A DNA stretch of 64,000 nt, taken from the NCBI RefSeq assembly GCF_026151205.1, contig NC_087074.1, positions 1,364,001 to 1,428,000 of the forward strand. Reading direction: 5' to 3'. The translations under genes were made by a program, and so were the position numbers. The stretch is from Bolinopsis microptera (Eukaryota > Ctenophora > Tentaculata > Lobata > Bolinopsidae). Of the stretch, positions 3,341-50,157 are shown piece by piece (position 1 is the stretch's first letter; the number at the start of each line of letters is the position of its first letter). A model generated the notes under the pieces. That model was not told the DNA's origin and made no database searches. It was given only the letters and a program-made list of their open reading frames with translations.

Positions 3341-3343
3341 CAC

Positions 3344-4723: not shown

Positions 4724-6419
4724 ATGAAGCCAGTGATACTGTTAACACTGTTCATTTGGTTTACAAGTACAGCTCACGCACAACCTTCTAAAGGTAGGGG
4801 AAATATAATGCACATAATGCACAACAGCTTCTAATTAGATATGATATGAACAGAAGAGCGCATGCTAGTCAGGAATCATTGTCTGGTCTAACATAGTCTG
4901 TAAATCTAGCATATTAATAATAGGATGTCATAAATAAAGTTATAAATTTATTTATTTCAGTTCGTGATCAGAAGATAGCAGAGATAACTCCAACAAAAAT
5001 AACAAAAGGATCCGCTTATCTAAATGACGAGGAAAGGTTGAGTTTTGCTGCTGAACATGCAATTGATAAGGATCTCTCAACAGTAGCAGTAACTGTAGGT
5101 AGCGCAGATAACGCAGATAACGGTGCAGTCTGGATAAAGTTAGAGTTTGATAGGACCTACTTTATCCACAAGGTCCTTATCTACTACATGTTCTACACTA
5201 ACTGGTATGATCCAGAGCATTGGTGTGCACAAACTGCAATTAAATTTAGGGACTGTGTCAACAGCGATAACAACGTGGATGTGTCAGTATACCAGGGAGG
5301 GGTAAAACAGAAGTCTTGTGGAACACTCCAACTAACATACGCACTAGAGCAGGCAGACCAGATCTACACACTGATCTGTAACACTGAAGGAGATACTGTA
5401 AAACTCAGTAAGAGTACTGGAAACATAGCGGTCTATGAAATAGCAGTTCAGAGTAGAGGTACTGTTTTTCTAATTATCAAATAATTAAGAAGCCCTTTAC
5501 TTGCTTCAGTGTATTTATCGTGTTTAGTACTACTGGTTACCTGATAGTATCCATAACATTCTATGTGGCCCTGAGCTTGACAAAGTGAATGGAGTATTTA
5601 TTTTTAAACCTCATATCCTCCGTCAAGTGTGCTTCAATGGCCGCTGGTAGAGCTGACTACGAAGTTATGAAAATGACCTTTCCTTCTCAGAATGCGACAA
5701 CTTCGTCAGTTCTGATTTCCCGGGAATGTTGGATCTATCACCGTGGTTACCAGTATTAACAGGAACAGTTCTTACGGTGGAATGTGGCAGATCTCATAGA
5801 TTTGCCGTGGTGTCCGGGGACAAAACCCTGACTTGTGTCCACGGTTAGTACAACACTTGCTTATCTGTTTAGTTACATAATCTATATAATTTACATGATT
5901 TACATAATTTAAAATTATTATTATTATTGCAGTATAACGAAATAACGATAACGATAATTCTTCAGGATCTACCTTCGCCTACTACCAGATTCCTAAATGT
6001 GAAAAAATAGGTAAGTGAGATTAATAAACCATGATTGATCCTTTGATATTTGATACTGTTCATCAAAGACATGAAATAATTGGGAGTTATACTTTGTCTT
6101 TGCATGACCAGTTATCACTGAATTTTCTCCATTCACGCTGTTAATAACATACCAGCTAAGATAAAGAGATAGCCGCCACCTCCTCATCAGAATCCGGGTA
6201 TAATAAGTATAGAATTGTTGTATTTTATATAATTAATTGCACTGTTAATTGCAATGTACGATCTGTTCGTTAAGCTGAGAAACTTTCCACTATTTTATCT
6301 TTCATGTACGCCCATTTAATGCGGCCCTTTAATTGGAAAATTAAGGAGTTCACTTATTTTTAATACTATCCTTTTTAATATCTGTTTCAGAAACCTCAAT
6401 ACTCCATCTTGAGATTTAA
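4724..6419 (+). CDS. Secreted lectin-like protein: discoidin-like plus sushi-like domains
   Basis: Five exons: 4724-4793, 4961-5458, 5691-5843, 5966-6010, 6391-6419. All introns are GT-AG and all are phase 1, giving 264 aa. Exon 1 is a signal peptide (MKPVILLTLFIWFTSTAHAQ). Exon 2 (about 165 aa) reads like a galactose-binding/F5-8C or fucolectin-type beta-sandwich: an AIDKDLST motif, an IKLEFDRTYFIHKV strand pair, and paired cysteines. Exons 3-4 look like a sushi/CCP unit (a cysteine after the splice, ECGRSH, GDKTLTC, YYQIPKCEK). Phase-1 modules are typical of shuffled extracellular domains. It is probably extracellular carbohydrate recognition or innate immunity; the ligand is unknown. The start is set by the signal peptide. 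The mirrored allele differs by several residues, lacks 3 codons in exon 2 and has 3 extra in exon 5. Confidence 0.8.
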
Positions 6420-6497
6420 GAGTAATTTCAGATTAACAGTGTGGAAATATCTTTGGACTACGTATCGTTGAAGTTCATTCTATATCATAATTGAGTA

Positions 6498-7192
6498 CCT
6501 TAGGGCCAAAAAATTTGGGTCACAATAAATTTTGTTACTATAATTTTGGTTTTCCATAATTTTGGGCACAAATTTCGCAAATTTTTAGTCTACAACAATT
6601 TTAGTCGAATTTTTAGACTTTTCGAGACCATGTTCTATTCCATTTATTTGATTTTTCCATCATTAAGCTAGTTTTTTTTTCAATTTCGCATATAAAGTCT
6701 TACTTTATAGTGAACTAAGTACAGACAATGGAACACATGTATTAGAAATTTCCCATGGCCCACGTGCACACCGCGCGCCAAACGGTCACGTGGACAAATT
6801 ATCAACCTCGTGATCCTGTAACTTATATATTACACCATACGCCCGTATTTTGGTAAGGAGGAATATTCTCGATCTGGGAACATTCCAACGAAAGGCCAAC
6901 ATTACATACATTGCATTAGTTACATATCATAGGCCATAGCATACAATTTCTTATTACACGCAGTAGGGACCTGTGTACAGTTAGCGATATTTAATTAACT
7001 GTTTATCATAAACATAATATGATAAAGTCAAAGAATGTAAGCTCAATAAAATTTAATTCATAGATGCTCTATTAAAATTTTGGTCTACTTCAAAATTAGT
7101 CGCCGAAAAATTTAGTCACGTGAAATTTGGTTTACAACAATTTAAGTCAAAAGTTTGACTAAATTTATGGTAGACTAAATTTGTCGTTAAGG
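6498..7192. mobile_element. 695-bp non-autonomous DNA transposon, TA target duplication
   Basis: Flanked by TA (6496-6497 and 7193-7194). Ends are inverted: CCTTAgggccaaaaaattt on the left, and the right end read backwards begins CCTTAacgacaaattt. Inside are many aaattt-rich words. The mirror arm at about 48166 has the uninterrupted site with a single TA. No coding capacity. TA duplication suggests the Tc1/mariner-like group. Confidence 0.8.
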
Positions 7193-7318
7193 TAATCATT
7201 TTATTATGGTATGTAACACGACTTATTTCCTGGGGCCAGAATGTTGCAAATACCTTAAACACTGAATAAAGTTAAATCAATAAAACAACATAACGAAGCT
7301 AGACTCTATAGCGTGTAC

Positions 7319-10278
7319 CTGATAATCAAGAATCATCTGCTCGAGGTGCGTGCTCTTCATGAAGAAGTTGTATTTAGAGCCGGGGTCGGTACTAGCCAGG
7401 AACTTCTTGCTCATTTCCTGGTTCAGGATGCTCACTGGGTTGTTCACCTGAGTTGGGGAGTTAATTGTTAATTGGTTAATTGGTTAAGTGGTGAGCTGAG
7501 ATTAAAGAGGGGGTTTACTAGCTGCATGACATGCTCATAAGGATTATAAGTATTGGTTTTGTGACTGAATAATGGCATTCGAGGGAGTGATCACAGAGTT
7601 TGAGGAATTAGAGTTCGCCTCATGAAGTTTAATGAAGGAGTAAGTAACCTTAAATGTTGCTATTGACCACATATAATTGACTCTAACATTTTTTTTGGAA
7701 ATGAAGCTGTCTTTCACTTTAGTTCTTGTTCCTCTAAAACATAATAATATAGATCTCAGACAAAGGAAACTTATTTTGGTACAAATCCAGTTTAATAATT
7801 GAATACCTTACTCGGGATTATTATGACCGGGATAAAGTGGTGGGTTTAGGGTAATTTCGCCATATTTTTCCCGAACCACATTTTCACCGGTCGTTAATAA
7901 ACCCGCCTACTCAGCTTTTAGGGTTCCCAAGGGGTATGGGTGCTCATATTTTAATCGTTGTCTTATATTCACTAAAGAAGACTATTGGGACACTTGTTGT
8001 AGGTTTTTCGACTTCATTTGGCTAAAATTGCAAAAAATTCACCTTTTTGCCCAATTCTTGTCATATATCCTTATTGTCAAATTTGATTTAAATAGGCCAA
8101 TTTTTAATTTCTTAGGTATTGACTATCTCTACATAATGAAATAGGACTCAAAGTAAAAGTAACAGTTAAATTAAAACTTGAATTAATTAAAACTGATGAA
8201 AGGGATGATCCAGATGAAGATAACGAAGATGATTACAACTTATTGGAAGACTAAACAGCTCTCCCTTTATCTTAATATCGATCTGGTTGTTACGCTTCAA
8301 ATGTTAAAAATTATTTTCCATCTAGTTTGATTAACCACGAGTCATTATTTCTGTCTACTTTCAACAATTATTGATAATTCGACTTGTTTCACAAGTTTTA
8401 GCAATGCGAAAATTTCTAAACTTGTTTATCTCTAATAAGGAAATTTACATCTGAGACAAAATTTTTGAATCTAAAATTGAAAGGTTGGACACCGGTAAAA
8501 TGGCGACCGGGAAAATGTGGTGGGTTTTGAGCAATTTCGCCATATTTTTCCCGAACCATATTTTAACCGGTCGTTAATAAACCCGTCGTAATAATCCCGA
8601 GTAAGGTAATAGTTCAATACCTTACTCGGGATTATTACGACGGGTTTATTAACGACCGGTTAAAATATGGTTCGGGAAAAATATGGCGAAATTGCTCAAA
8701 ACCCACCACATTTTCCCGGTCGCCATTTTACCGGTGTCCAACCTTTCAATTTTAGATTCAAAAATTTTGTCTCAGATGTAAATTTCCTTATTAGAGATAA
8801 ACAAGTTTAGAAATTTTCGCATTGCTAAAACTTGTGAAACAAGTCGAATTATCAATAATTGTTGAAAGTAGACAGAAATAATGACTCGTGGTTAATCAAA
8901 CTAGATGGAAAATAATTTTTAACATTTGAAGCGTAACAACCAGATCGATATTAAGATAAAGGGAGAGCTGTTTAGTCTTCCAATAAGTTGTAATCATCTT
9001 CGTTATCTTCATCTGGATCATCCCTTTCATCAGTTTTAATTAATTCAAGTTTTAATTTAACTGTTACTTTTACTTTGAGTCCTATTTCATTATGTAGAGA
9101 TAGTCAATACCTAAGAAATTAAAAATTGGCCTATTTAAATCAAATTTGACAATAAGGATATATGACAAGAATTGGGCAAAAAGGTGAATTTTTTGCAATT
9201 TTAGCCAAATGAAGTCGAAAAACCTACAACAAGTGTCCCAATAGTCTTCTTTAGTGAATATAAGACAACGATTAAAATATGAGCACCCATACCCCTTGGG
9301 AACCCTAAAAGCTGAGTAGGCGGGTTTATTAACGACCGGTGAAAATGTGGTTCGGGAAAAATATGGCGAAATTACCCTAAACCCACCACTTTATCCCGGT
9401 CATAATAATCCCGAGTAAGGTACTTCATTTACCTGGATGTTGTAATGGTCGAGAAGAAGCGTTAAATCGTTCTTCTTTGTTGATATGGTCTTCCCTTCAA
9501 AGTTCTTCAGTTTGTACTTACTGCCCTGCTTCGTTATTTTCCTCTCCACCAGCACGGCAGATCCATATAGCTGGACATTTCACAATTTAACTTACAATTC
9601 AACAAAAATGGGACTAACTACTAAGTGAAAGTAATACACCGCGCCGTGATACTAATTTTTTAAAACATGAACAACTGTCCAATTTTCATTTCCCCTCAAT
9701 AATAAATAACACAAAAACTGCACTCACCTCAACTTCCCAAGCATCGTGATTATGATTAGAGTTGCAGATTGTGATGGTAACTTGGCCCCAACTCGAACCT
9801 TGCTTGATGAACTCTGTCATGTTTGGAGCTCGGTTTGTAGCGGAACTTTTTCCGCCAAGTCCAATGACAAGCGCCATCAAGATAGCTGATTTACCGCCTG
9901 GTGGTAATGGGATGATTGACTAGCTAATTAATTAATTAATTAGCTAATGGAACATGGTGTTCCTTGTTATCAGTACTCAGAGCGAAAATCTCAATTCGAG
10001 CAATTTAATTCATGAACAAATATTGAAATTACAGTGCTTACTTAAAAATACAACAAAACCAAACTGCACTACAAGATAAACTTACTTCCATTTCTTCCGA
10101 CGACAAAGTTGACGGTGGAACAAAACTCGACCTCAAAAAATGTGTGGCACATAAAGTTCTGAAGCTCAATCTTCATGATCCCGCCGGGGACTAGGGCTCC
10201 CTCTCCCAGCCCCTCAGGGTCTGCTCTACCCCTCTTACTTCCTGGCCCCGGCCTATCGGGGGCTCTCTTCTGGGACAT
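7319..10278 (-). CDS. SMC6: SMC6, first four exons only (N-terminal ATPase half-head)
   Basis: Exons 10278-10086, 9897-9728, 9570-9433 and 7447-7319, all with GT-AG borders and matching phases, give 210 codons. Residues ~35-70 hold the family start ([11 protein letters not shown]...[18 protein letters not shown]) with a complete Walker A (GRNGSGKS) made across the exon 1/2 junction. [14 protein letters not shown] and [17 protein letters not shown] are characteristic of SMC6 rather than SMC5. SMC6 is the DNA-repair SMC of the SMC5/6 complex. The rest (coiled coils, hinge, signature motif, Walker B; normally over 1,000 aa) is not seen, and the lectin gene converges from the other side. Reading past the exon 4 donor gives about 13 more codons then a stop. 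It is either a truncated duplicate, or the remainder lies beyond an intron containing the lectin gene. Both arms show the same truncation. Intron 3 holds two transposons. Confidence 0.85.
7806..8606 (+). mobile_element. 801-bp TA-flanked DNA transposon, copy A
   Basis: Bounded by TA at 7804-7805 and 8607-8608. The ends are CCTTACTCGGGATTATTA inverted. A ~75-bp subterminal motif (with gtggtgggttt, ttcgccatatttttcccg, ccggtcgttaataaaccc) occurs in the same direction near both ends. Copy B lies 13 bp away in opposite orientation and is nearly identical, same length. The mirror arm (47550-47570) has neither, only the two empty TA sites. It lies in SMC6 intron 3. Confidence 0.9.
8123..8254 (+). 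pseudogene. C-terminal coding tail of a lost transposase (in copy A)
   Basis: An open stretch ends in a very acidic C-terminus ([18 protein letters not shown] then stop). There is no start. Codon-like composition and an acidic tail inside an 801-bp terminal-inverted-repeat element suggest a deletion derivative of an autonomous transposon that kept its last ~43 codons. Confidence 0.45.
8620..9420 (-). mobile_element. 801-bp TA-flanked DNA transposon, copy B
   Basis: Same family and length as copy A but inverted. Bounded by TA at 8618-8619 and 9421-9422. Together the two copies form an internal palindrome of about 1.6 kb. The near-identity of the copies suggests recent insertion, one beside the other. 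Confidence 0.9.
8972..9103 (-). pseudogene. C-terminal coding tail of a lost transposase (in copy B)
   Basis: Mirror of the acidic tail in copy A, with the same stop and the same [16 protein letters not shown] ending. Confidence 0.45.
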
Positions 10279-11255
10279 ACTGGGGGTGCTATTGGAGATG
10301 TTGAGATTAGAAACTAGTTTAACACAGTTTGCTTATTTCTTGTTTGTTTTTGATAGGTGGTTTTTAGATTATTACCACGTAATGAAAAGGTATACGGTGT
10401 TTTGAAGTCCATTTTTACTTGCGATGTTTTGAAGTCCATTTTAATTGCTATGTTTAAAAAAGAGATTTTTGAAGGTATACAAAATTTGACTGATGTGGAA
10501 AATTTGAGAACTTCGGTGTATTAACTGAAAACGAATAAATCACAGAGCTTCAATCTATTAGAAAGTATTAGTTTAACAAACGTAAACTGTCATTCGAATT
10601 AAGAATGAGCTAGAATTTCGATATAATAATAAGCAAATCCATTATAGAACTTATTATTAACATATCATGATTAAAAAATCGAGAATAAAAAATCTATAAA
10701 AGTATAAAAAATCTGATCAATAAATCAAATCTCTAAAAACCAAAAATAAGGTGCTAAAAATTACATTTAATTCGGTCATTAGTCAAAAACAATTGAAAAT
10801 GGAATTTCTCATAATATGATCGATTTCAGCATATACGTTTCTATATCGAAAGATAAAACAACTATCCCTCATGATACATGAAAATGATCACTAAACTATA
10901 AACTTTCGTTAACAATGCTAAAAGAGTAAGCAAATCGTCAATCTACATCTATATGAAATCACAAACAAACCGGTCGACCACCGACAAAAACAATAGCTAA
11001 AAATTTGATAAAATATCGAAGATATTATAAAATGATATAAAATTAGGAGACTAAAGTCAAAAAATTGCCTAAATAAATTAAAAGATTCCTAACTTAACAA
11101 GTCATGAGGGGATACAAATTAATGACGCATAAAACCAAATGAATCTAATCAGAAGTGGTCCAACAACAAATTCGACCCCTCTAAAAAACTTACTCTAGAA
11201 TGCAAATTATCACGAGGGTAATTCCGGAAAGTTCTACCAAATTCTTACAAGTGAT
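10279..11255. other. Intergenic between SMC6 5' end and the 9-exon gene
   Basis: AT-rich, no exon recognised. Should contain the SMC6 promoter and the 3' UTR of the upstream gene. It is well conserved in the mirror arm (45722-46678). Confidence 0.5.
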
Positions 11256-14200
11256 CTAAAAGTTACCGTTGTTAAAATAACTTGACGGTTGAGAGAAATA
11301 CATGTCGTGTCCCTGTACCGGTGAGCCCTGAGCGGTGGAGGGACTGAGAGGGGCCGGTGGTTGGAGGTATATGTCGGGTGGCTGGAGAGCAGGTGTTGAG
11401 AGTGGGTAAGGGGTCAGACTCGGCAATTCAGTCGACCACTGAAACTAAGGATGCGTTATGTTTGGGGTTAAATGCACGTCCAGCTATGAGAACACATCCC
11501 TCCGAGCTAGCGATACTAAATAATTCATCACAGGAATGAACTAAATCCAAGTGGGCTTGGTTAAATTACCTGGTAGCCAGGGTATAGGATACGAGGAGGG
11601 CTTGGTTAAATTACCTGGTAGCCAGGATATAGGATACGAGGAGGGCTTGGTTAAATTACCTGGTAGCCAGGGTATAGGATACGAGGAGGGAGAGCGTACA
11701 AGCTGCCGAGAGGAACATGGGTTACTGCTGGGGTAGTGTTGTCACCCCAGCTACTCCTGCTCGGTTTATCAGCTGTGTTGTTATCCTCACTGACCTGCCC
11801 CATCCCTGTAATGGATGAAAAACGTTTTGTTGTGGATCTCAAATGTAGAAATGGATATTTTGGGAAATACCGGAATATTGTGTTTCTATGATGGAATACA
11901 AAGATTCTTGCATTGGGGGGGGGGGGGGGGGGGGGGGGGCCAATGGCATAAAATGGCATAAAATGGCATAAAATGGAGACTTTTTCTATGGAGAAAATGG
12001 AAAAACCCATGAGTAATTCTCCATTTTCTCCATTTTATGCCATGAATTTTGTCTTCGAAATTTCATCTTTAACACCATTTAACACCTAAATTGGACATCC
12101 TAACATGTTTATTTACGCTTACTAGGGGCGTAAGAAGCTTATGAAAGCTCATAGTAGGCTACTAGATGCTTATACTAAGTTAGTAGAGGCACACTTCAGG
12201 CAAACTCATAATTACTCAAGCCTAATGTAAAGTTATTTCTACAGGCTACAGCAGGAGTGAGTAATAGGGGAGAGTAATAGGCACTGAGAAGTGAGACCTA
12301 CATCCTCGACAGTCGAAACAAGCTCGCACTGCAAAGGGGAGGCCTGCTTTCCGAGATCGCATTACCAGGGGGAATCCTCGAGTCCAAAATTGTGTACCGA
12401 GGGGTAATTTTCTAAGTCAAAATTTTTCAAAGTTTTTCTGAAAAACACTTTTCTCCACGTTTCATGCTACCTTGTTCATTTTAAGCCGAAAATATTTTTT
12501 CGGTCAACATTTTTCAAATTTTTTCTGAAAACCGCTTTTCTCCACGTTTCATGCTACTCTGTTCATTATTTGCCGAAAATATTTTTTCGGTTTTTCGAAG
12601 TCCACACCTTCCCCTAGATACACAATTTTGGACTCGAAGTAATGCGATCTCGGAAGGCAGGCCTCCCCTTTGCAACACGAGCTCGGAATCGGGAGCTCTC
12701 GATACGAGAGGTACGTATCGAGAATGACTTGGGCCGAAAATTTTCTCAGTCAAAATTTTTCAAAGTTTTTCTAAAAACCACTTTTCTCCACGTTTCATGC
12801 TACCCTCTTCATTATTAGCCGAAAATATTTTTTTTTAAAATACTTTTTCTCGAAATTTTAAATTTTTCAGGTTTTCAATGGCATAAAATGGCATAAAATG
12901 GCATAAAATGGAGACTATTTCTATGGAGAAAATGGAAAAACCTATGAGTAATTCTCCATTTTCTCCATTTATGCCATTGGCCCCCCCCCCCACCCCCCCC
13001 CCCTTGCATTTTTATATTATATTATTCTATAAGAATATGCTTTAAAAATGTTTACAGACCCATACAAAAATAAAGATCATAAACATGTGATTCATCTGTA
13101 CGGAAACCAAACCAGTTTTTCTAATGTAAACATAAATTAAGAAGACTGACCGTAGAGAGAGTACAACATGGACGGAGGTTGTGGAGGAGGGGGAGGTCGG
13201 ACAAAGTTGGGAGCTGACAGCTTAGCAGCCAATACTGGGGTGAGTGGTGGGGACAAGGGGTGGAGACTGTTACCAGAACCAGGACTTCTGGGAACATGCA
13301 GTTACTATCAATAACAATTACAAGCTGGTTCAACCCACATGAAAAAGGCACAGTCATCGTGCAATTTTCATCTTTTAGAACTATGTCATGTCAATAAATG
13401 ATTTTATTTATAAAACCGGCAAAACTTACAAATTCACAGGTTTAGGGGAGGATGTGTAACAGGGCTGGATGGTATGATAGGTTCTGTTCCCCTGTTGCCC
13501 CTGACAACCACTCGGAATCTTTATAACAGTTGTACTGGGTTCACATTCCGGAGCTGATTTTTCAGGAGTTGAGCTCGTCACTGCACCATCTAGACTGCTA
13601 CAACCACTTGACAGCTGGTCAGATTGCACAAATTGTGGGCTGTGAGGAGTTGAGATGGTACCGGGCGTGGAGATGAAGTTGTCTGCGTACTTCATTATAT
13701 CTTTATCAACGTGATCAACAAGATCACTCGTCATGTCAAGGTTTATCTGAAAGAAATGGTTCCGGTTATCGATTAGAATCGTCAAAAATTGATTAAATTA
13801 ACTTTAGGCAATCCTCAATCTTCATGTTTTAAATATGATTACAAATTGTTACTTTCTCATAAATTGTCACAACTGAAAGGAGTAATAATTGATACAGTTT
13901 TGAAAATACTTACAAAAATTTTGAAAAATACTAACAATAGTTTTGAAAGTACTTACAACAGTTTTTGAGGCAAACATTTGTTTGAATTGTTCCGTTTCCT
14001 TCTTCATGAATTTAGAACACTTGTTCCGTAGAGTAGCTATGACGGGGTCTGACCCCACCCTGCCAGGATATCCCAGGTCCAGGATAAACTGGTTCTGCTT
14101 GTACCACTGCCAATGTAGGGAATATTAATTCAAGTATTTGTAATACTAATAGAAGTACTCGAAAATTTAAGAAGCACATAAACTGAACCAGATGAACGTA

Positions 14201-17200: not shown

Positions 17201-18057
17201 GTTGGACCAGGATTACTAAACAATTGTTGAATTTGACGGACAACCGTGTACAATTACAAATGTATCTAGCGAAATTGAATAATTTAGGTAATAAATGGAC
17301 AACCTAGCTGATTTGTCAGTCCCTATATTGTTTAACTGTCTATCGTGCTAAAAACCGTCGTACGTATAATTACATAACTTGTGACTTTGAATTAAAATAT
17401 AAATACCTGGCCGGAAGAAGGAACATTCTGATCAGGATCAGGTAAAATGTCCACCTCATCATCTATCTGGTGAACAGGGAGAGGATGTAGATTAAGGGGT
17501 TCCAGTGGTGCACAAGTAGGAGCTGTGAGAGTCAGTTTAGTAGTGTTACAGGGGCTGTTATCAGTTCTGGGACTCTTGAAGCCAATATCTGGACTCACTG
17601 CCTGTGACACAGACGGAGCTGGGTTGTGAACTGTAGAGTCGGATACAGGAACTGGTTTTGTATCTTTACAGAAGTCAAATAGAGCACTCCGAGCGGAAGG
17701 ACTGCAGACTGCTAGGTTACTGTCTCTTAATATTAATCCAGTGTTGTGTTTCGCTTTGATATCTTCAAAAAACTCGAACAGAATCTTCCTCTCTGTTCGG
17801 TCAAACCGAGGTTTCGAAATTACAGCCTTGTGATGTCCGTAAGCCTGAACAGATATGTCAAGAGTTAAATCGAGTATTAGTGACTTCATCAGTTGAAGAG
17901 TTGAACCAACCATGTTCAGGAGACAATTTAGTTTTAAAATGTAAGTTCTACAATTGATTGAACTAACCTTGTAGCAGGCCCAAAAGTCACTAGCGAATCT
18001 AGTGTAAGGAGTCCTTATTCGTAGATGAGGATTAACAATACCCTTTCGCTTCCCCAT
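11256..18057 (-). CDS. Nine-exon gene, 574 aa, partial HMG-box-like, identity unknown
   Basis: Exons 18057-17968, 17844-17407, 15172-15053, 14428-14285, 14106-13957, 13746-13430, 13287-13151, 11805-11660, 11438-11256. All have GT-AG borders and compatible phases, giving 1,725 nt ending NNGNF-stop. The N-terminus is basic (MGKRKGIVNPHLRIRTPYTR). Exons 3-4 (SKIISEKWASCDSDLKEEYR then RQTAEEKSTFLE) resemble helices 2 and 3 of an HMG box, but helix 1 is not recognisable. Exons 6-9 are low-complexity Ser/Thr/Pro-rich with a poly-proline run (RPPPPPQPP) and Tyr/Pro motifs, like an activation domain. A nuclear DNA-binding role is inferred only weakly. The ATG is the first in an exon with a good donor. 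Intron 2 hosts a gene on the other strand, and intron 7 hosts a transposon. Confidence 0.8.
11551..11700 (-). repeat. 58-bp tandem repeat spanning the exon 8 splice donor, 3 copies
   Basis: Each unit holds the last ~30 coding bases of exon 8 (CCTCGTATCCTATA, GGCTACCAG), the donor gtaatttaacc and some intron. The copy nearest exon 8 is the one used in the model; two extra donors follow. The mirror arm (about 45335-45380) has a single copy. Confidence 0.9.
11915..13002. mobile_element. 1,088-bp element bounded by poly-G / poly-C, 8-bp target duplication
   Basis: Target duplication CTTGCATT at 11907-11914 and 13003-13010; the mirror arm (about 45066-45075) has it once, with no insert. The ends are a ~25-base G run followed by ccaatggcataaa, and the inverse at the other end. 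Inside each end is a same-direction ~100-bp block of three atggcataaa units followed by its own inverted partner (ttctccattttatgcca). The centre holds an inverted repeat (about 12329-12400 with 12608-12676, sharing caaaggggaggcctgc) and three degenerate copies of a cttttctccacgtttcatgc block. No ORF. The 8-bp duplication fits hAT-like transposition, but the poly-G terminus is unusual. Confidence 0.8.
13886..13957 (-). repeat. About 22-bp tandem repeat of the exon 5 splice donor, 3 copies
   Basis: Reading on the minus strand, gtaagtactttcaaaact is followed by two variants that begin gttagta and gtaagta, so two further potential donors lie in the intron. The mirror arm (about 44170-44195) has one copy. 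Confidence 0.8.
15978..16027. repeat. Perfect 22-bp hairpin with 6-base loop
   Basis: Arms 15978-15999 and 16006-16027 are exact inverse complements (begin gtttgaaagggtttattg), loop cgcccc. A second copy of the acgcccctaaacaataaa half lies at about 15746-15765. It is located upstream of the nested gene. Function unknown; could be a solo terminal repeat or a structured transcript. Confidence 0.7.
16256..17104 (+). CDS. Secreted protein nested in intron 2 of the 9-exon gene
   Basis: Exon 1 starts at 16256 with a clear signal peptide (MKYFLVFALFALATAG). It then has a charged region with beta-like strands (YDFKFRVIGMKP, ESEVHLYKVEKGEEG) and ends KRPKPEDK. Unspliced, it stops at 16615-16617 (YDSIW), about 120 aa. 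A second open stretch (about 16784-17104) begins RRSKTSEKDEIEERR and continues with dibasic-rich KDDKRRPRADDKDDKRLPKP, then a region with two cysteines ending CENQDE. Joining 16591 to 16784 is in phase, though the acceptor lacks a pyrimidine tract. AATAAA at 17128-17133 supports a transcript ending there. The layout faintly recalls growth-factor prodomains, but no mature domain is seen. An earlier ATG (16148) would precede the signal peptide and is less likely. Confidence 0.6.
16625..16770 (+). repeat. Short repeats of ttaagtgtgac-type words in the nested gene
   Basis: Variants of aagtgtgacacttaa / tttaagtgcgacctcat / tttaagtgtgacctaa recur about five times between the two coding stretches. 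They fall in the proposed intron and could themselves be a decayed tandem array. Confidence 0.6.
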
Positions 18058-31934: not shown

Positions 31935-32305
31935 ACTGTACTGTGGTACATGGTGTACTGTGTACTGTGGGAAACTGTGTCTGTGTGTACTGTGTACTGT
32001 GTACTGTGTACTGTGTCCTGAGCACTTGTGTACTGTGTTTATCGGGTGTCTGTACTTGAGGGGGGGTATATGTACTGTGTACTGTTTACTGTGCACTGTG
32101 TACTGTGTACTGGGGTGGCACTGTGCACTGTATACTGTGTACTGTGTACTGTGCACTGGGTACTGTGTACTGTGTAGTGTACGTGTACTGTGTACTGTGT
32201 ACTGTGCACTGTGTACTTTGTACTATTACTGTGTACTTGTACTGTGTAACTGTGTACTGTTAAAGGTGCACTGTGTACTGTTGACTGTCACTGTTACTGT
32301 AGCAC
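31935..32305 (-). repeat. Mirror of the 7-bp minisatellite
   Basis: gtgtact units interrupted by odd inserts (for example around 32040-32070), consistent with poor consensus. Confidence 0.8.
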
Positions 32306-33477: not shown

Positions 33478-33690
33478 CTATGACGTTTGTTGTGATGTGT
33501 TGTGACGTTTGCTGGACGTTGCTGTGACGTTGCTGTGACGTTGCTGTGACGTTTGGCTATCCGTTCTGTGACGTTTGCTGTGACGTTGCTGGTGACGTTT
33601 GCTGTGACTTTGCTGTTGACGTTGCTGTGGACGTTTTATGTGACGTTGCTGTGACGTTTGCCGGTGACGTTTATGTGAAACGTTGCCTGT
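33478..33690 (-). repeat. Mirror of the 11-bp CRE-like array
   Basis: gctgtgacgtt units with frequent extra T or G. Confidence 0.8.
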
Positions 33691-36594: not shown

Positions 36595-37580
36595 ATGAGG
36601 TAATTCAGATATAAGGCACGGGACCAGCTGTGACCACGTGACCAGCAGTGATTCCGAGGGAGATGAGCAGCAGACCTCGCGGTCCGCTTGTAGCTGTTTG
36701 TTCACACTGTTACGCCAAACTGGACCCTGAAACGTCCGCCCCCTTCTGATTGGACAACCTGGCCTGTTGTGTAATGAATCAGCGCCCACTGCGCACGAAT
36801 CAGCGCCCCCTGTGTATCAGTCCACACCTCCAGTTATTGGATATGATCTGTCCCACTACCCCACCGTACCACCTCCAGGGTGTGATCTGTCCCACTACCC
36901 CACCGTAACCACCTCCAGTTTTACCCCCTTCCACCTAACGAGTTCCCCATGCGACCATCATAACACAGCCCCCGCTTCAGAATAATAACCAATTGTCTCA
37001 ATGTTATCCGACAACAGACAGCACAGTAGTCCACCACCCCTGATATCATGTGTCCGTTATATGTAGATCTGAACCTGGCTCTGAAAGATAATATCTCCCT
37101 GTTACATGTGCTGGTTCTCTACAGTATGTTCATCAGAGTTGCCTCCTGAAATGGCTTTAAAGCGTACGACTGTGTCAACAAGCATCACTGGTGAGCTGTG
37201 GTAACGTACGAGTTTAAACTGAAGCCGAAGCCGTGATGGAGTAGGCGTAAGCCGCGCTGTCCGGTTGACAGAGCAACGCCGCGCCACTGTCCCCTCCGTT
37301 GTCATATGTTCCTGGCTGTGCTCATCGTGTTATGGGTCCCTAGTAACGAAACCTTGTTCAGAACATTCAGGTTAACAATATATACATGAACTGGGGATCC
37401 TGGACCAAGTTATTGTTCATTGTGTTCGGTTTGTGCATCTGGCATACCAGTACCCCACACTAAAGTACTTCTTTTGAATTGCGGGAAAGTAACCAATTGT
37501 GTTGTGGGGGAGGAAGGGGAGGAGCAGACGGCTGGAGACTGGTAAACTTAACGAGTCAAGCACGCAGGTGGGAGAAGTGA
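36595..37580 (+). pseudogene. Mirror copy of the MARCH gene, frame-broken
   Basis: The ATG is followed by a stop at codon 3 because of an indel; the RING-CH and transmembrane regions are recognisable in pieces in different frames. The upstream ATGTAA uORF and 5' UTR acceptor are kept. Only one copy of the 60-bp repeat is present. Confidence 0.8.
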
Positions 37581-39929
37581 ACCTTGCTACTCCACTCATG
37601 TGCGGCGGGATGCGAAAGCACGCTGTGGGGATGGAGGTGGGTTAAGGGTGTTTGTGTGTGTGCCAGTCGGGTGACTACATAATGGAGGGGTGACGGAGCG
37701 CACGCCCCTCTCTCACAAGTGAGGGGTTGAACCCGCTCTCTCAGACTCACTCCTCGTCGAGAGCAAGTGAGACTAGAGCTATTCTCCCTAACTGTAGAAC
37801 TCCTACTCACATAAGTTTTAAACACTTGAGACACAAGTGAGACGACATATGAGATGTGATCATGTTTGAATTTAAGGTTGTTGCTGAACCATGGTGAAGA
37901 GACATCGTGGTCTTGGTGGTAGCACTGGTCAGTGAAAACAGATAATATAGTTTTCAGAAAAAATTAATGTTATTTGTGGTGCGATTGCCAGCAGATGATG
38001 CCCTCTGGGTGGATGTACAACGACAGTTTTCTATTGGGATTTTGTGTTGTTGTTATCTGTTTTTGAGGCTGTTATGGCGGCTTATATTTGATTGTAGATA
38101 ATGAATGAATGGTTTTTGAAAACCTGTTTTTTTGAGATGTGTTTTAAAAAAGAAATTTTACAGTCGCTCATGGATCGTTATAATTTAGATTATTTTGCCA
38201 CAAGCTTTTTTAATTGGAACAAGAAAACCCGTGTTAAATATGATTTTTCAAACAAGCTTTAACGAACTGCAACTTTTTAAATTGCTAATTAATTTAAACC
38301 TTGAAAAGTTGTATAGGAAAAGAATTTAACTTCAATATCAACTATTGGAAAGATCCTACTCCAAAAAAGATGTGATGAACTATGATAATATTATAATTCC
38401 AAATACTGTTTTTTTTCTTTTTATTTTTAGTACAAAGTAACATTGGTTTAAAACAGGAAAGGACAGAACTATTTTGATTTTGTGCATAGATTGTACATTA
38501 ATCTCGCCATTATAGTTGGGTTAAGCGTTTCTAACCAATTTTTGAGAGCAATTTATTTTCAAGTTTGCGTCTCTTTCAAAGTTTATAGGTGGTAGCCTGC
38601 TGTAGAGCATGATGGAGTTGTGCGAATGTCGTTAAGTAAATTCGCGGTCTGCTCTGGTCATACACCTACGTTTTTACCCTTTGTTTACTTGTCAAAAACA
38701 CACCATGGGAGGTGTATAGTGGTTGCAGTAACGTTGAGTATTCATAATTAACTTTGAAATCCGGGACAAGACACTGAAGTTTTCTGATCCAAAAAAGTTT
38801 ATGAAAATGTACAATAAGCTATTATTCAATAGCATAATATGAATTGGTATGAACTAGATGATATGTACATATTATACAACTAAAATATGTGTTCTCCTGA
38901 AAATAAACCATTCTATTTGTCCGCTGTCCCGTACAGGATTATTTATCCGAATTTGTCAATAATTGGATATTAATTTTTTGAAACTCACAAATAATATTTA
39001 CATGTGATATATAATGTCTTTGTGGTTACTGCTTATTTGTGCAAGTATTTATTAAAAAAATCGGAATTAAACTCCTGGTCGAACTACAAAAAATTTTGCT
39101 AGAAATCAAACTTCTGGGGGGGTGGGGTGGGGTCTCAAAATGCAAATATTAAAATCAAAAGGTTGATGTAACCGAAATTGTTTCACACATTTTAAACGTT
39201 AAGGCGCTGAGTAGAGAATCTGCAGTTTCTGTTCAAACTTTTAAGTCCTCTTCACCACCTTTCCAACGGAATCGTCTGACTCTCCGTGGCTTTCCGTCTT
39301 TTAACTCGAATATTTACACAGGCAACGAATGTTTTCGAAGAGCCAACCGTCAAAAGCAAAAATAAAATTAGTTTGGCTATCAGGGTGCACTGATATCACC
39401 AGGTTTATATCCGCGGCCACCTTGTAGCCACACTAGGGAGAGCAAAATACCGGACCGACAGGTATTAACTCTTTACTATTCACATGTATAATTATACATA
39501 TGGGATAATACATATTGGCGTACGAATCCTAAATAGTAAACTGTCTTTCGGTTTTACTAAATTGGCAAGAATACCGCTGAAAGGGTTCCTTCGCACTCGT
39601 TCACGGAACGCGCGAATAAGAACGTTTGTGTAACAAGTGTTTCCGATTTTCGCGCAGAAACCTGATGCGCGACACACGCGCGCTAATCGGCAATTAATGA
39701 TAAGCACGATCGTGTACAAACATGGCCTCTAAAATGTGAACCTTTCCTGTAGACCCCTAATTGATACATTTTGAGCCGGAAGTTAACCATTAATCCTAGG
39801 AAGTTATTCTCTACGCAGCTCTTGATCTTTGCTGTATTGGTGTCGGTGGTTTGCTTTTAACAAAGTTTAGCAATAACTAGCACTAAACATTTGAACGACC
39901 GAGTATTTTTCAAGGAAATAGAATATAGA

Positions 39930-42900
39930 ATGGGGAAGCGAAAAGGTATTGTTAATCCTCATCTACGAATAAGGACTCCTTACACTAGATTCGCTATGAC
40001 TTTGGGCCTGCTACAAGGTTAGGTTCAATCAATTGTAGAAACTACATTTTAAAACTAAATTGTCCTCCTGACATGGTTTGGTTCAACTCTCAACTGATGA
40101 AGGTCACTAAATACTCGAATGTAACTCTTGGACATATCCTGTTCAGGCTTACGGACATCACAAGGCTGTTATTTCGAAACCTCGGTTTTGACCGAAACAG
40201 AGAGGGAAGATTCTGTTCGAGTTTTTTGAAGAATCTAAAGCCGAAACACAACACTGGATAATATTAAGAGACCGTAACCTATCAGTCTGCAGTCCTTCCG
40301 CTCGGAGTGCTCTAATTTGACTTGCTTAAAGGATACAAAACCATTCCTTGGTATCCCGACTCTACAGACTCTCGCTCTGCTCTGCGCCCCGCTCCGTCTT
40401 ATAGAGTCCTGGCGCGTCGGGAGTGCAGTGAAGTCCAGGGAGTCACTGTGGCTACAAGAGTCCCAGAAGCGAGATCTATGGCGACAGCCCTGTAACACTA
40501 CTAAACTGACTCTCACGCGGTGTATCGTTCCTACTTTGTGCACCACTGGAACCCTTAATCTACATCCCTCCCGGTTCCCAATAAGATGATGAGGTGGACA
40601 TTTTACCTGATCCTGATCATAAAAAAAAAAAAAAAAGAAAGAAAAAATTGTGCCTTTCTTCCGGCCAGGTATTTATATTGTAATTCAAGTCACAAAGTTA
40701 TGTAATTATACGTACGACGGTTGTTTAGCACGATAGAACAGTTTAAACAAATATAGGGACTGTACAAATCAGCTAGTTCCATTTAGTCCCAAATAGCAAT
40801 TTCCCGCTAGATACATTTGTAATTGTAACACGGTTGTCCGTCAAATTCAACAATTGTTTTTAGTAATCCTGGCCAACGAAAATGAAAGAACATATGATTC
40901 TTTTGTCAAAAATGATAAATCAGAATAAGATATTAATGCCTACAAGCTTTATTAGGTGTGTATTTTTCTTCATCTCCTATTCGTCCCTGATTTTCACACC
41001 GTCACCATGAGACACGGATGTACCTCGCGGTTTTGGATGTTTTTTTTGTTACTACCAACTCCCTGACATTACGGGACACATGACCTGACATGAGGCAGTG
41101 TTCCGTAGTACACCAGATATGAGCCCCTGTTCATCACAGCTTACATTAGCAAACGCTCACACTCCCAATGATAACGTTGCTTCGGTTTGGGAAAGTCTCC
41201 TTATCGTCCTTTGTCGTCAGCTCTGGGGCGTCCCTCTTACATCTTTGCCGTGAAGATCTAAGACGTCCTCTCTTCAATTTCATCCTCTCACTAGTTTTTG
41301 GAACGTCTCTATTACCAACCTTTAGGTCACACTTAAACAGCAGTTTACGGTGATGTTCGCACTTAAAAAGGAGTTTAAGTTGCAACTCAACAAATGGTAT
41401 TCCCACGAAATTCTCTTTTAAAGTGTCACCCTTAATTTTTAAGGTGTCACACTAAAAATCCCTCAAAATTTGGTATTTACCAAATTGAGTCATACTTATT
41501 AAACCTTGTCTTTCAAAGGTTTGGGACGTTTTCACAACGAATCATTTGCTGATATCTCCTCAGACAGTGTCCTTCAAAGAGAATCAAAATCTGTTACTTG
41601 AGCTCTGAACCCTCCTCTCCCTTCTCTACTTTATACAGAATGCCCTCAATTCTATGAGAGGTTTTTCATTCCGATCACTCTGAACTTGAAGACATAGGGC
41701 TCGCTCTGATTGGCTCGGTGGAAGGTTCTTACAAAGATTGCTGTAACATTGATGCGGAGATTTTGGTTTTTATGTCGTTTCCATCACGCGGGCGGGCCCG
41801 GGCGGGTGCAAGTGCAAACAAGGCAAACACAAGAAAGTATTTCATCTTGAGTTGATTCGCATTTTGGTGATTATCTAGAATCATGAGGCCAGGATCAAAT
41901 GAAAATTCAGAATGAAATTAATAACGTTTATGACTTGATAGAAACTCCCATCTTTCAAAAATTTGCTCCTTCATAAACAATTTTTTTGCTCCAATCATAA
42001 AAATATTGTGTACTACAATCCCAAACATTATCCTTGAATCACCCTGATAACTTTATACCACCTTCAGTTTCTCTGTTGAAAGGTTTTATTGTTTAGGGCG
42101 TAAAACAATAAACCCTTTCAAACATTTTTCACCACAATCACAATGTTGAATATTTTAACAGTGATCGACACTGAAATGTAAAAATCCGAAAACATATTTG
42201 AGAACAGATTTTCATGTTACTTTACATTTACCTTCCAGAAGCAACTAGGATCAGACCGCGGTATGCCCTTTAAAAAAATCCTATATAGTCGATGGTGCTG
42301 TAATGTGTCGAGTAAGCATTATATGGAAAACTTTATAAAGGGATTATTGTTTTAGGGGCGTAGTCCTACAGACGATTTCACGCCAATCATTGTTGATAAT
42401 GCGCATCGAGAATCTGTTAGTTCTCCTTTGATTTACTCATCATCTTTTATCCACCTGCGTGAAACCTCCCACTTCTGGTACAGTTTAAAAAATGTCAACC
42501 TAAACTTTGTCTTTAACTTAAATTTGTAGTGAGGAGACACAGAAATAACATTTTTTATATACGTGCAACAAATTACTCAAAAGTTGAAGCCATAGCTAAA
42601 GATTAGAAAGCTTCTCCCAAGAAACAATGATAGCGGTACTTTCTGGGAATCTCTGACCGAGTTGTGGTAGTCGGACTGTGGATACAACCATTGGGTTTTA
42701 CTAAACATCCTGACCATTTTTATCCTGAATACAACCTCCCAAATATATTCAAACTCTACTGCTGACACTTACAAAAACTATTCAATATTAGCGAAAAGAG
42801 AAACGCTATTTTCGGACGTTAGGAGAGTGAGGACTCCTCAACAACATTTAAATAATTCCTCTGTAACGTCTCAATAAATGTAATAGGTGTGTAAATGTTT

Positions 42901-45721
42901 AATTAGTTTTAAATAAATATTTTTCTTCGCAGCACGGTTGATGTCAGGACCTCCCCAGGCTCCTACACCAGAGAGCGCCAGGGAAGGATAATCGGTTTTT
43001 ATGAGCAAAATTTATCAGTGAGAATGGGCCTTCCTTGCGATAGGTGACCTGAAGGAATACGTTTGGTCCTGTGGATTTGAATTTTAGTGGTATACACTCA
43101 AAAAGTATAAGAACATATTTAAAGAATGTACTATAAAATCGAGTGGAATTTGTTAAATAAAAATTAATATTTTTAACTGACCGGGTACCAGGTACCAATA
43201 AACATCTAGTTGTGTAACATCATGTGACCAGATCACGTGACACGATCATGTGACCAGGTGAGTTAACGCTGTGAAGCACCCATCCTTAATGCATCTGCCA
43301 TTATTATCTCTGAGGTTGCTGTCACTAATTATTAATGCTTGTGGGGAATTTGGCGGTAGCAAATGCCTGTTGAATTCTCCGTAACTCCTTGATTCGTGAT
43401 TATCAGCGATTATCATGATTTTCTACGAAAACTTGTCATAAATTTTGAATATTATTAAATTGATGATCCATATCCTTTCCTGAGGTCCTGAACACGCGAT
43501 GGGGTTTTAATAAATGTAATTGATCAAACAAATGTCGTAACAGAAAGGCCGATTCTTTTTCAGTAATCCCTATCGCCAAAATGATTAAATGGAATGAGGC
43601 ATATTATTCGAAAATAAAATGTTAGCCATTAGCCCGATCCACAAGGAAACATAAAACGAACACATTCTAAACTTGCCAATCACCCAGGAAGTACAGAAGA
43701 AAGACAGCTTGAAGAGAAGTCCCCACATTCCAGAGACAATGATAGCAGTACTTCTGGAACATGGCTTCCCTCTTCCTCCTGTAAGGATAGAATAGAGTCG
43801 GCTGTATAATATGCTATTCAAGATCTCTACAAGGTAGGGATTTTTCTAATTCTAATGGTAACTTAAGGTAACTGAGAAACTATGATAATGATAACGAGTT
43901 AATTAATTATAAAAACATCTAACGTTCATCTGTTTCAGTTTATGTGCTTTCTTAAATTTTTTCGAGTACTTTCTATTATATTACAAATACTTTGAATTAA
44001 TATTCCCCTAACATTGGCAGTGGTACAAGCAGAACCAGGGTTATTCCTGGGGACCTGGGGAATCTCCTGCAGTGGGGCAGACCCCGTCATAGCTACTCTA
44101 CGAACTAGTGTTCTAAATTCATGAGAAAGGAAACGGAACAATTTCAACCAATGTTTGCCTCAAAAACTGTTGTAAGTACTTTCCAAACTATCAATTATTG
44201 CTCCTCTCAGTTGTCACTATTTAGGAGATAAGTAAGTAACAATTTGTAATCATATTTAAAACATGAAGATTGAGGATTGCCTATGGTTAATTTAATCAAT
44301 TTTTGACGAGTCTAATCGCTAACCGGAACCATTTCTTTCAGATAAACCTTGACATGACGAGTGATCTTGTTGATCACGTTGATAAAGATATAATGAAGTA
44401 CGCGGACAACTTCATCTCCACGCCCGGTACCATCTCAACTCCTCACAGCCCACAATTTGTGCAATCTGACCAGCTGTCAAGTGGTTGTAGCAGTCTAGAT
44501 GGTGCAGTGACGAGCTCAACTCCTGAAAAAGCAGCTCCAGAGTGTGAAGCCAGTACACCTATTATCAAGATTCCGAGTGGTTGCCAGGGGAATAGAACAT
44601 ATCATACCATCCAACCCTGTTACACATCCTCCCCTAAACCTATTAATTTGTAAGTTTTGCCGTTTTTATAAATAAAATCATTTATTGACATGACTATGTT
44701 CTAACAGATGAAAATTGCACGATGACTGTGCCTTTTTCATGTGGTTTGAACCAGCTTGTTATTGATAGTAACTGCATGATCCCAGAAGTCCTGGTTCTGG
44801 AAACAGTCTCCACCCCTTGTCCCCACCACTCACCCCAGTATTGGCTGCTAAGCTGTCAGCTCCCAACTTTGTCCGACCTCCCCCTCCTCCACAACCTCCG
44901 TCCATGCTGTATTCTCTCTACGGTGAGTCTTCTCAATTTATGTTTACATTAGAAAGACTGGTTTGGTTTCCGTACAGATGAATCACATGTTTATAAGATA
45001 TTTTTCGTTTTTGTTTGGGTCTGTAAACATTTAAGCATATTCTTATAGACTAATATAATATAAAAATGCAAGAACCTTTGTATTCCATCATAGAAACACA
45101 ATATTCCGGTATTTCCCAAAATATCCATTTCTACATTTGAGATCCACAACAAAACGTTTCTCAACCATTACAGGGATGGGAATATCTAATCTAATAACTG
45201 TTAAACTACAGGGATGGGGCAGATCAGTGAGGATAACAACACAGCAGCTGATAAACCGAGCAGGAGTAGCTGGGGTGAAAACACTTCCTCCCCTGCAGTA
45301 ACCCATGTTCCTCTCGGCAGCTTGTACGCTTTACCTCCTCGTATCCTATATCCTGGCTACCAGGTAATTTAACCAAGCCCACTTGGATTTAGTTCATTCC
45401 TGTGACGAATATGCCGTATCTGCGGTGATTCAAAATCTAAGTCGATATTTTTCTTATTTAGTATCGCTAGCTCGGAGGGATGTGTGCTTATAGCTGGAAG
45501 TGTATTTAACCCCAAACATAACTCAACCATAGTTTCAGTGGTCGACTGAATTGCCGAGTCTGACCCCTTACCCCCTCTCAACACCCGCTCTCCAGCAACC
45601 CGACATATACCTCCAACCACCGGCCCCTCTTAGTCCCTCCACCGCTCAAGGCTCACCGGTCCAGGGACACGACATGTACTTCTCTCAACCGTCAAGTTAT
45701 TTTAACAACGGTAACTTTTAG
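39930..45721 (+). pseudogene. Mirror copy of the 9-exon gene; 5' exons broken, 3' exons intact
   Basis: Exons 1-5 (39930 to about 44170) carry frameshifts. Exon 6 (44342-44649) onward is clean: exon 6 is 9 bp shorter by whole codons and has replacements, and the last exon ends at 45721 with the same NNGNF stop. The change from indels to substitutions near 44.2 kb marks a change of sequence quality, not of gene fate. Confidence 0.8.
40977..41845 (-). pseudogene. Mirror copy of the nested secreted-protein gene, frame-broken
   Basis: The signal-peptide start (41845) and the final stop are found, but indels disrupt both coding stretches. Confidence 0.75.
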
Positions 45722-46678
45722 ATCACTTGTAAGAATTTGGTAGAACTTTCCGGATTACCCTCGTGATAATTTGCGTTCTAGAGTAAGTTTTTTAGTGGAG
45801 GGGTCGAATTTGTTGTTGAACCACTTCTGATTAGATTCATTTGGTTTTATACGATCGTCTTTAATTTGTATCCCCTCATGACTTGTTAAGTTAGGAATGT
45901 TTTAATTTATTTAGGCAATTTTTTGACTTTAGTCGCCTAATTTTATATCATTTTATAATATCTTCGATATTTTATCAAATTTTTAGCTATTGTTTTTTGT
46001 CGGTGGTCGACCGGTTTGTTTGTGATTTCATGTAGAATGTAGATGTAGACTGACGATTTGCTTACTCTTTTAGCATTGTTAACGACAATTTATAGTTTAG
46101 TGATCATTTTCATGTATCATGAGGGATAGTTGTTTTATCTTTCGATATAGAAACGTATATGCTGAAATCGATCATATTATGAGAAATTCCATTTCCAATT
46201 GTTTTTGACTAATGACCGAATTAAATGTAATTTTTAGCACCTTATTTTTGGTTTTTAGAGATTTGATTTATTGATCAGATTTTTTATACATTTATAGATT
46301 TTTTATTCTCGATTTTTTAATAATGATATGTTAATAATAAGTTCTATAATGGATTTGCTTATTATTATATCGAAATTCTAGCTCATTCTTAATTCGAATG
46401 ACAGTTTACGTTTGTTAAACTAATACTTTCCAATAGATTGAAGCTCTGTGATTTATTCGTTTTCATTTTTCAGTTAATACACCGTTCTCAAATTTTCCAC
46501 ATCAGTTCAATTTTTTATACCTTCAAAAATCTCTTTTTTAAACATCCCAATTTTAAAGTAAAAATGAACTTCAAAACATCGTATTTCATTACGTGGTAAT
46601 AATCTAAAATCCACCTATCAAAAACAAACAAGCAAACTGTGTTAAACTAATCTCAACATCTCTAATAGCTGTTCCAGT

Positions 46679-48036
46679 ATGTCCCAGAAGAGAGCTCCCG
46701 ACAGGCCGGGACCAGGAAGTAAGAGGAGCAGAGCAGACCCTGAGGGGCTGGGAGAGGGGGCCCTAGTCCCCGGCGGCATCATGAAGATTGAGCTTCAGAA
46801 CTTTATGTGTCACACATTTTTTGAGGTCGAGTTTTGTTCCACCGTCAACTTTGTCGTCGGAAGAAATGGAAGTAAGTTTATCTTGTAGTTCAGTTTGGTT
46901 TTGTTGTATTTTTAAGTAAGCACTGTAATTTCAATATTTGGTCATGAATTAAATTGCTCGAATTGAGATTTTCGCTCTGATTACTGATAACAAGGGACAC
47001 CATATTATGTTCAATTAGCTAATTAATTATCCCATTACCACCAGGCGGTAAATCAGCTATCTTGATGGCGCTTGTCATTGGACTTGGCGGGAAAAGCTCC
47101 GCTACAAACCGAGCTCCAAACATGACAGAGTTCATCAAGCAAGGTTCGAGTTGGGGCCAAGTTACCATCACAATCTGCAACTCTAATCATAATCACGATG
47201 CTTGGGAAGTTGAGGTGAGTGCAGTTTTTGTGTTATGTATTATCGAGGGGGGGGGGGGGGGGGGGGGAATTATCGAGGGGAAATGAAAACTGGACAGTAG
47301 ATTGTTCATGTAAACAAATTTAGTATCACGGCGCGGTGTATTGCTTTCACTTAGTAGTTAGTCCCATTTTTGTTGAATTGTAAGTTAAATTGTAAACTGT
47401 CCAGCTATATGGATCTGCTGTGCTGGTGGAGAGGAAGATAACAAAGCAGGGCAGTAAGTACAAACTGAAGAACTTTGAAGGGAAGACCATATCAACAAAG
47501 AAGAACGATTTAACTCTCCTTCTCGACCATTACAACATCCAGGTAAATGAAGTATTGAACTATTATTCAATTATTAAACTGGATTCGTACCAAAATAAGT
47601 TTTATTTGTCTGAGATCTATATTATTATGTTTTAGAGGAACAAGAACTAAAGTGAAAGACAGCTTCATTTCCAATAAAATTATTAGAGTCAATTATATGT
47701 GGTCACTAGCAACACGTAAGGTTACTTACTCCTTCATTAAACTTTATGTTGCGATCATTCCCTCGAATAAGTCAGTCACACAACCAATACTTATAATCCT
47801 TGGCCTTATGAGCATGTCATGCAGCTAGTAAACCCCCTCTTTAATCTCAACTCACCACTTAAACCGATTAACCAATTAACCAATTAACAATTAACTCCCC
47901 AACTCAGGTGAACAACCCAGTGAGTATTCTGAACCAGGAAATGAGTAAGAAGTTCCTGGCTAGTACCGACCCCGGCTCTAAATACAACTTCTTCATGAAG
48001 AGCACGCACCTCGAGCAGATGATTCTTGATTATCAG
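46679..48036 (+). CDS. SMC6: SMC6 5' fragment, second haplotype copy (intact)
   Basis: Exons 46679-46871, 47045-47214, 47405-47542, 47908-48036: the same exon lengths and phases as the left-arm copy, 210 codons, with few amino-acid changes (for example Gly to Ser at residue 17). It lacks the two intron-3 transposons. As in the other arm, nothing resembling the rest of SMC6 follows; the lectin stop lies only about 200 bp downstream. Confidence 0.85.
47248..47280 (+). repeat. Poly-G tract flanked by a short duplication
   Basis: About 21 G are followed by aattatcgagggg, with attatcgagggg also before the run; the left arm has a single attattgagggg. It looks like an insertion or excision footprint related to the poly-G-ended element. 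Confidence 0.5.
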
Positions 48037-48242
48037 GTACACGCTATAGAGTCTAGAGTCTAGCTTCGTTATGTTGTTTTATTGATTTAACTTCAGTGTT
48101 TGAGGTATTTCCAACATCCTGGCCCCAGGAAATAATTCATGTTACATACCATAATAAAATGTTTACTCAATTATGATATAGAATGTTTCAATGATACGTA
48201 TAAGTCCAACAATATTTCCACACTGTTAATCTGGAATTACAC

Positions 48243-49720
48243 TTAAATCTCAAAATGCTCAAGATAGAGTATTGAGGTTTCTGAAACAGATATTAAAAAG
48301 GATAGTATTAAAAATAAGTGAACTCCTTATTTTTTCAATTAAAGGGCCGCATTAAAAGGGCGTACATGAAAGATAAAATAAGTGGAAAGTTTCTCAACTA
48401 AACGAACAGATCGTACATTGCAATTAACAGTGCAATCAATTACATAAAATACAACAATTCTAAACTTATTATACTCGGATTCTGATGAGGAGGTGGGGGT
48501 TATCTCTTTATCTTAGCTGGTATGTTATTAACAGTGTGAATGGAGAAACTTCAGTGATAACTGGTCATGCAAAGACAAAATATAACTCCCAATTATTTCA
48601 TGTCTTTGATGAACAGTATCATATATCAAACATTGTTTATTAATCTCACTTACCTATTTTTTCACATTGAGGAATCTGGGAGTAGGCGAAGGTAGATCCT
48701 GAAGAATTATCATCATCGTTATTTCGTTATATTGCAATAATAATAATAATAATTTTGAATTATGTAAATCATGTAAATTATATAAATTATGTAACTAAAC
48801 AGTGTAGATAAGCACGACGTGTTCTACTAACCGTGAACACAAGTCAGGGTTTTGTCCCCGGACACCAGTGCAAATCTATGAGATCTCTCACATGTCACCG
48901 TAAGGACTGTTCCTGTTAGTACTGGTAACCACGGTGATAGATCCAACATTCCCGGGTAATTAGAACTGACGAAGCTGTTGCATTCTGAAAAGGAAAGGTC
49001 ATTTTCATAACTTCGTAGTCAGCTCTACCAGCGGCCATTGAAGCACACTTGACAGAGGATGAGAGGATATGGGGTTTAAAAACAAATACTCCATAGTCCA
49101 TTCACTTTGTCAAGCTCAGGGCCACATAGAATGTTATGGATACTGCCAGGTATCTAGTAGTACTAAACACGATAAATACACTGAAGCAAGTAAATGGCTT
49201 CTTAAATATTTGATAATTATAAAAACATTACCTCTACTCTGAACTGCTACTTCATAGACCGCTATGTTTCCTGTACTCTTACTGAGTTTTACAGTATCTC
49301 CTTCAGTGTTACAGATCAGTGTGTAGATCTGGTCTGCCTGCTCTAGTCTATATGTTAGTTGGAGTGTTCCACAAGTCCCCTGTTTTACCTCTCCCTGGTA
49401 CACTGACACATCCACGTTGTTATCGCTGTTTACACAGTCCCTAAATTTAATTGCAGTTTGTGCACACCAATGCGCTGAATCATACCAGTTAGTGTAGAAC
49501 ATGTAGTAGATACGGACCTTGTGGATAAAGTAGGTCCTATCAAACTCTAACTTTATCCAGCCTGCACCGTTATCTGCGCTACCTCCAGCTAGTGCTACTG
49601 TTGAGAGATCCTTATCAATTGCATGTTCAGCAGCAAAACTCAACCTTTCCTCGTCACTTAGATAAGCTGATCCTTTTGTTATTGTTGTTGGAGTTATCTC
49701 TGCTATCCTCTGATCACGAA
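48243..49720 (-). CDS. Lectin-like gene, second haplotype copy, exon 1 missing
   Basis: Exons 2-5 are 49720-49232, 48984-48832, 48698-48654 and 48280-48243, in the same phases as the left copy. Exon 2 is 9 bp shorter (one Ala-Asp-Asn unit absent). The sushi-like exon reads CNSFVSSNYPGML...TVTCERSH. The C-terminus has three extra residues (YLEHFEI). The signal-peptide exon should lie upstream, but the sequence runs into a tandem array and the N gap. Confidence 0.8.
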
Positions 49721-50157
49721 CTGAAATACAAAGCTTTTGTTATTTTTGTTGGAGTTATCTCTGTTATTGTTGTTGGAGTTATCTCTGCTATCTTCTGATC
49801 ACGAACTGAAATACAAAGCTTTTGTTATTTTTGTTGGAGTTATCTCTGCTATCTTCTGATCACGAACTGAAATACAAAGCTTTTGTTATTGTTGTTGGAG
49901 TTATCTCTGCTATCTCTGATCACGAACTGAAATACAAAGCTTTTGTTATTTTTGTTGGAGTTATCTCTGTTATTGTTGTTGGAGTTATCTCTGCTATCTT
50001 CTGATCACGAACTGAAATACAAAGCTTTTGTTATTTTTGTTGGAGTTATCTCTGCTATCTTCTGATCACGAACTGAAATACAAAGCTTTTGTTATTGTTG
50101 TTGGAGTTATCTCTGCTATCTTCTGATCACGAACTGAAATACAAAGCTTTTGTTATT
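49721..50157 (-). repeat. Tandem array of the lectin exon 2 acceptor region, next to the gap
   Basis: Units of about 60 and 87 bp, each containing ttgtatttcag, the acceptor, then the first ~45 coding bases of exon 2 (TTCGTGATCAGAAGATAGC onward). Seven copies of the junction are visible (including the true one) before the N run. The left arm has one. Confidence 0.9.

Follow-up and report, generated by a model that had tools for sequence, protein, structure and literature searches.

Large real palindromes, e.g., those of the mammalian Y chromosome, consist of big inverted arms around a spacer; their arms are near-identical via gene conversion and show doubled read depth. Palindromic long reads arise after whole-genome amplification or through missed adapters (PMC6218980), and also as fold-back reads (PMC12870357). 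In the artefact reads treated by Pacasus (PMC6218980) and Breakinator (PMC12870357), the second half runs backwards through the locus of the first half, with no or a short spacer and at the raw error rate. The gap-filling program TGS-GapCloser takes the order and orientation of contigs as given, ignores possible assembly errors, and uses the best single-read fragment as the fill; such fills are normally error-corrected afterwards (PMC7476103). The assembly pipeline for the ctenophore Bolinopsis microptera comprised PacBio reads, wtdbg2, HiRise, TGS-GapCloser, Purge Haplotigs, and Pilon (PMC10232365).

The locus analyzed here lies in a window of 64,000 nucleotides of B. microptera DNA (C3:1364001–1428000; positions below are those of the window unless prefixed with C3) and resembles each of these systems in part. 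The big inverted arms around a spacer are shared with the Y palindromes; however, here one arm is raw, belongs in part to another allele, and interrupts a gene. The likeness to the Pacasus and Breakinator reads extends to the reversed second half, the short spacer, and the raw error rate; the differences are that here the fold-back is built into a chromosome-scale assembly, is known from the assembly alone, and continues into a polished contig from the other haplotype. As in raw-read fills by TGS-GapCloser, a program used in the published assembly, a stretch of single-read quality stands between two clean contigs, although here it is uncorrected and palindromic.

Self-BLAST of the window finds a 45-kb inverted repeat with a 23-base spacer, just as the initial annotation had described it (Table 1). 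The inverted matches run colinearly inward from 4953/49728 until the arms meet at 29200/29224, with an arm-to-arm identity of 87–93%, far above chance. Direct mirroring at one point across a short spacer, here TAAGTTTTTCTAGTTTTTTATTT, is a trait of fold-back artefacts; a fold that is base-precise at the centre would also suit a true genomic palindrome, i.e., an inverted duplication in the animal's chromosome. The outer end of the right arm (49673–50157) is a short tandem repeat.

We also searched the genome (264.65 Mb, 232 contigs) for further copies. For a centre-proximal piece (28000–29200, 1.2 kb) and for an outer piece (9700–11640, 1.9 kb), the mirror is the sole second full-length copy in the 264.65-Mb genome. 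A central palindromic repeat causing a misjoin in the assembly graph was rejected, as 28000–29200 has only its mirror at full length, other genome matches being short. The candidate of a missed SMRTbell adapter as the spacer fared no better: the spacer has only 23 bases vs. 45 in the adapter, and their local alignment score of 11 (mean of 8.2 for shuffled sequences) is reached by 43 of 500 shuffles, which does not identify an adapter remnant. Since the spacer is unlike the adapter, a missed adapter is not supported as the cause of the fold-back.

Table 1. Features of the inverted repeat and of the split KIFBP gene (window positions; residue numbers follow human KIFBP, PDB 6zpg).
Feature	Position	Strand	Description
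Left arm	4953–29200	+	Clean, very probably correctly placed; carries KIFBP 3' exons (minus strand); open RINGv and KBP_C exon frames
Spacer	29201–29223	.	23 bases, AT-rich, fold point; similarity to SMRTbell adapter unconvincing
Inner right arm	29224–44190	-	Raw, error-laden reverse copy of the left arm from 29200 to ~13937; very probably a false insert
Outer right arm	44191–50157 (inverted repeat to 49728)	-	Polished ~6-kb contig of the other haplotype, reversed
Scaffold gap	50158–50257	.	100 N, left open, at the outer end of the right arm
KIFBP 5' part	50578–52914	-	Human residues ~23–361; very probably the left arm's true neighbour
KIFBP exon	28113–28307	-	Human residues 422–468
KIFBP last exon	25269–25760	-	Human residues 469–615
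TA-flanked element	~6500–7190, left arm		Ends CCTTA..TAAGG; empty site in right arm
Two elements	7803–9422, left arm		Empty site in the other allele at ~47554–47564
Element with long poly-G/poly-C ends	~11940–13003, left arm		Flanked by TTGCATT; empty site in right arm
TTAA-flanked MITE-like element	~19330–20000, left arm		Ends GGGGAGATACACC

Differences between the arms, scored from the BLAST alignment pieces, are not uniform. A sharp step is directly visible at ~13937 of the left arm and ~44191 of the right arm: outside this boundary there are 0–3 single-base indels per kb-bin and direction, while inside it most full 1-kb bins contain 18–38 one-base insertions and 11–21 one-base deletions. 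The outer part shows ~4.4% substitutions, with isolated transitions and transversions at 46:46, and only four one-base indels over 5.0 kb (two insertions, two deletions); indels here preserve reading frames. In the inner part, one-base insertions number 382 and one-base deletions 216 over 12.8 kb, and isolated transitions and transversions stand at 15:85 (Fisher P 2e-7 against the outer part). One 444-bp exon stretch is open in the left arm and carries 28 frame-breaking indels in the inner right arm. Coding frames are open in the left arm, hence inside the boundary the errors lie in the right arm. These insertion-heavy errors are the signature of uncorrected long reads of the PacBio CLR type. 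In a true palindrome, raw-read-like errors in one arm only would imply almost no independent coverage, which argues against this reading.

Transition rates, taken only where six clean columns flank the site on either side, further separate the two parts. Transitions occupy 1.63% of eligible sites outside the boundary vs. 0.37% inside, i.e., about a fifth; three of the four inner blocks show 0.09–0.27%, and the garbled block 17650–21600 shows 1.1%. Another allele would be expected to show a rate near that of the outer part; as the inner rate is far below it, the inner right arm should belong to the left-arm haplotype, or to a tract where the haplotypes are near-identical. Judged by its sequence, it appears to be in essence the left-arm haplotype with raw-read errors added, as a fold-back read would give; this combination of single-read errors with the haplotype of the first arm, a further trait of fold-back artefacts, is seen in 29224–44190 only. 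The outer right arm, in turn, is clean sequence from the other haplotype, and only these outer ~6 kb are allelic. The left arm holds transposon-like insertions (Table 1) for which the outer right arm keeps intact empty sites; together with allelic divergence and clean sequence, these are the traits of a haplotig in a primary assembly, and they are found in 44191–49728 only. In a true palindrome, an old duplication could account for an outer-arm divergence of 4%; however, the divergence resembles that between alleles up to the error boundary, where it drops to nearly zero for the inner part.

The initial annotation had explained the repeat as a haplotype joined in reverse, pointing to unpolished sequence, allelic differences, and a gap at the outer end. 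All of these are present: the right arm is partly raw, as seen from its indel pattern; the outer right arm shows both the substitutions and the empty transposon sites expected of another allele; and the 100-N gap is where it was said to be. The explanation itself holds for 44191–50157, which is allelic in character and adjoins the gap, and fails for the inner 15 kb, given their low transition rate. Extended to the whole right arm as an alternate haplotype, joined in reverse and partly unpolished, it is very improbable in our view: the allelic outer 6 kb with their empty sites and the gap at their end agree with it, whereas transitions in the inner 15 kb are about five times rarer than in the outer part, and two haplotypes turning at the same base would need a reason. 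If the haplotypes were near-identical over the inner tract, this reading and the fold-back reading would be indistinguishable. A haplotig continuing past the gap was rejected, as 50258–56000 has no match to the left flank; self-BLAST likewise finds no similarity of the left-arm end to the beginning of the right flank. For 1–4952, no second allele elsewhere is seen among the scored matches, which include only short dispersed repeats.

The gene for the KIF-binding protein (KIFBP; Pfam KBP_C) is present in one copy in the genome; all its exons are on the minus strand, and it is split. To the right of the gap, KBP_C profile positions 1–52 are matched at 51062–51217 and positions 56–128 at 50668–50895; in the left arm, positions 167–215 are matched at 28128–28274 and positions 214–361 at 25284–25727. 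The exon at 50578–51012 is by itself a weak match to human KIFBP (E 0.047), yet it is in order with the neighbouring exons. Directly observed, the exons are colinear only if 29201–50257 is omitted; therefore, the right arm is a false insert, with ~29200 and ~50258 as true neighbours. Restoration of true neighbours when the second arm is dropped, here of KIFBP across 29200/50258, is again what a fold-back artefact should give. In a true palindrome, both arms should be equally supported and the gene structure should fit a real insertion; instead, one arm is raw, and a conserved single-copy gene would be cut in half. We regard a true palindrome as extremely improbable, and the choice of an artefact over it, already made in the initial annotation, is borne out by KIFBP being split exactly by the right arm and the gap. 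We consider it just as improbable that KIFBP in the sequenced animal contains a genuine fold-back inverted duplication, limited perhaps to a subset of cells or to one copy of the chromosome, that very few reads captured.

Taken on the sequence evidence, the palindrome is almost certainly an artefact of the assembly: the real chromosome would run from ~29200 through a gap of probably small size to ~50258, with KIFBP running through. As part of this whole explanation, and with the same near-certainty, the inserted false reverse sequence of ~21 kb would combine a raw fold-back-type copy with a short stretch from the other parental haplotype; the two-part structure of the insert is itself directly seen. 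Counting against the explanation, ~60 residues of KIFBP (human ~362–421) are missing from both sides of the junction; they would fall at the junction itself, probably in the true gap. Also counting against it, the inner right arm is short by ~720 bases around the TTAA-flanked MITE-like element (left-arm positions 19264–20069), where it is garbled; this deletion exceeds ordinary read errors. The unlikeness of the spacer to a SMRTbell adapter is a further point against, and neither it nor the deletion alters the verdict.

The published Bolinopsis pipeline can account for the anatomy of the insert; the programs involved, the use of a single read, and the fold-back origin of that read are what we infer. 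Hi-C scaffolding would have put the ~6-kb contig of the other haplotype, reversed, between the true neighbours, i.e., the halves of KIFBP, and a 100-N gap would then have flanked the reversed haplotig on each side. Into the left gap, the gap closer may have pasted part of a single long read that turns back on itself at 29200 and continues for 15 kb in reverse; we propose that this read was chosen because it matched the end of the left contig as well as the reversed haplotig. Short-read polishing would have left the 15 kb uncorrected, possibly because the accurate reads aligned to the clean left arm instead, and the second gap would have stayed open.

The 45-kb mirror image is not a real genomic feature, and the main weight of this result concerns data quality: a chromosome-scale ctenophore assembly, used for deep synteny, would hold a 21-kb false insert, which would break KIFBP and repeat neighbouring genes in frameshifted form. 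Tests of gene continuity and of transition rates need no raw reads to detect gap-fill palindromes of this kind.

Several other repeats were observed in and around the window. The region of the KIFBP 5' end (52533–55264) is repeated directly at C3:1439614–1443886, ~23 kb further on, with ~94–95% identity; this reflects either a tandem duplication or a further case of allelic sequence assembled twice. The end of the KIFBP exon 28113–28307 recurs at 27951–28030 as an 80-bp tandem copy. The insertion at 7803–9422 consists of two near-identical ~800-bp MITE-like elements with ends CCTTACTCGGGATTATT and TA duplications, which stand in opposite orientation, 11 bases apart, and form a real 1.6-kb inverted pair; a further copy of the element is at C3:1430018–1430816. 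A 15-bp tandem repeat at 1863–2380 is open in both strands and codes for a KEVTK repeat, and a ~180-bp dispersed repeat at 344–534 is found on most chromosomes as long tandem arrays with a period of ~317. Finally, an array of a 48-bp satellite occupies C3:1463834–1468000; it is at least 4 kb long and extends beyond the fetched stretch.
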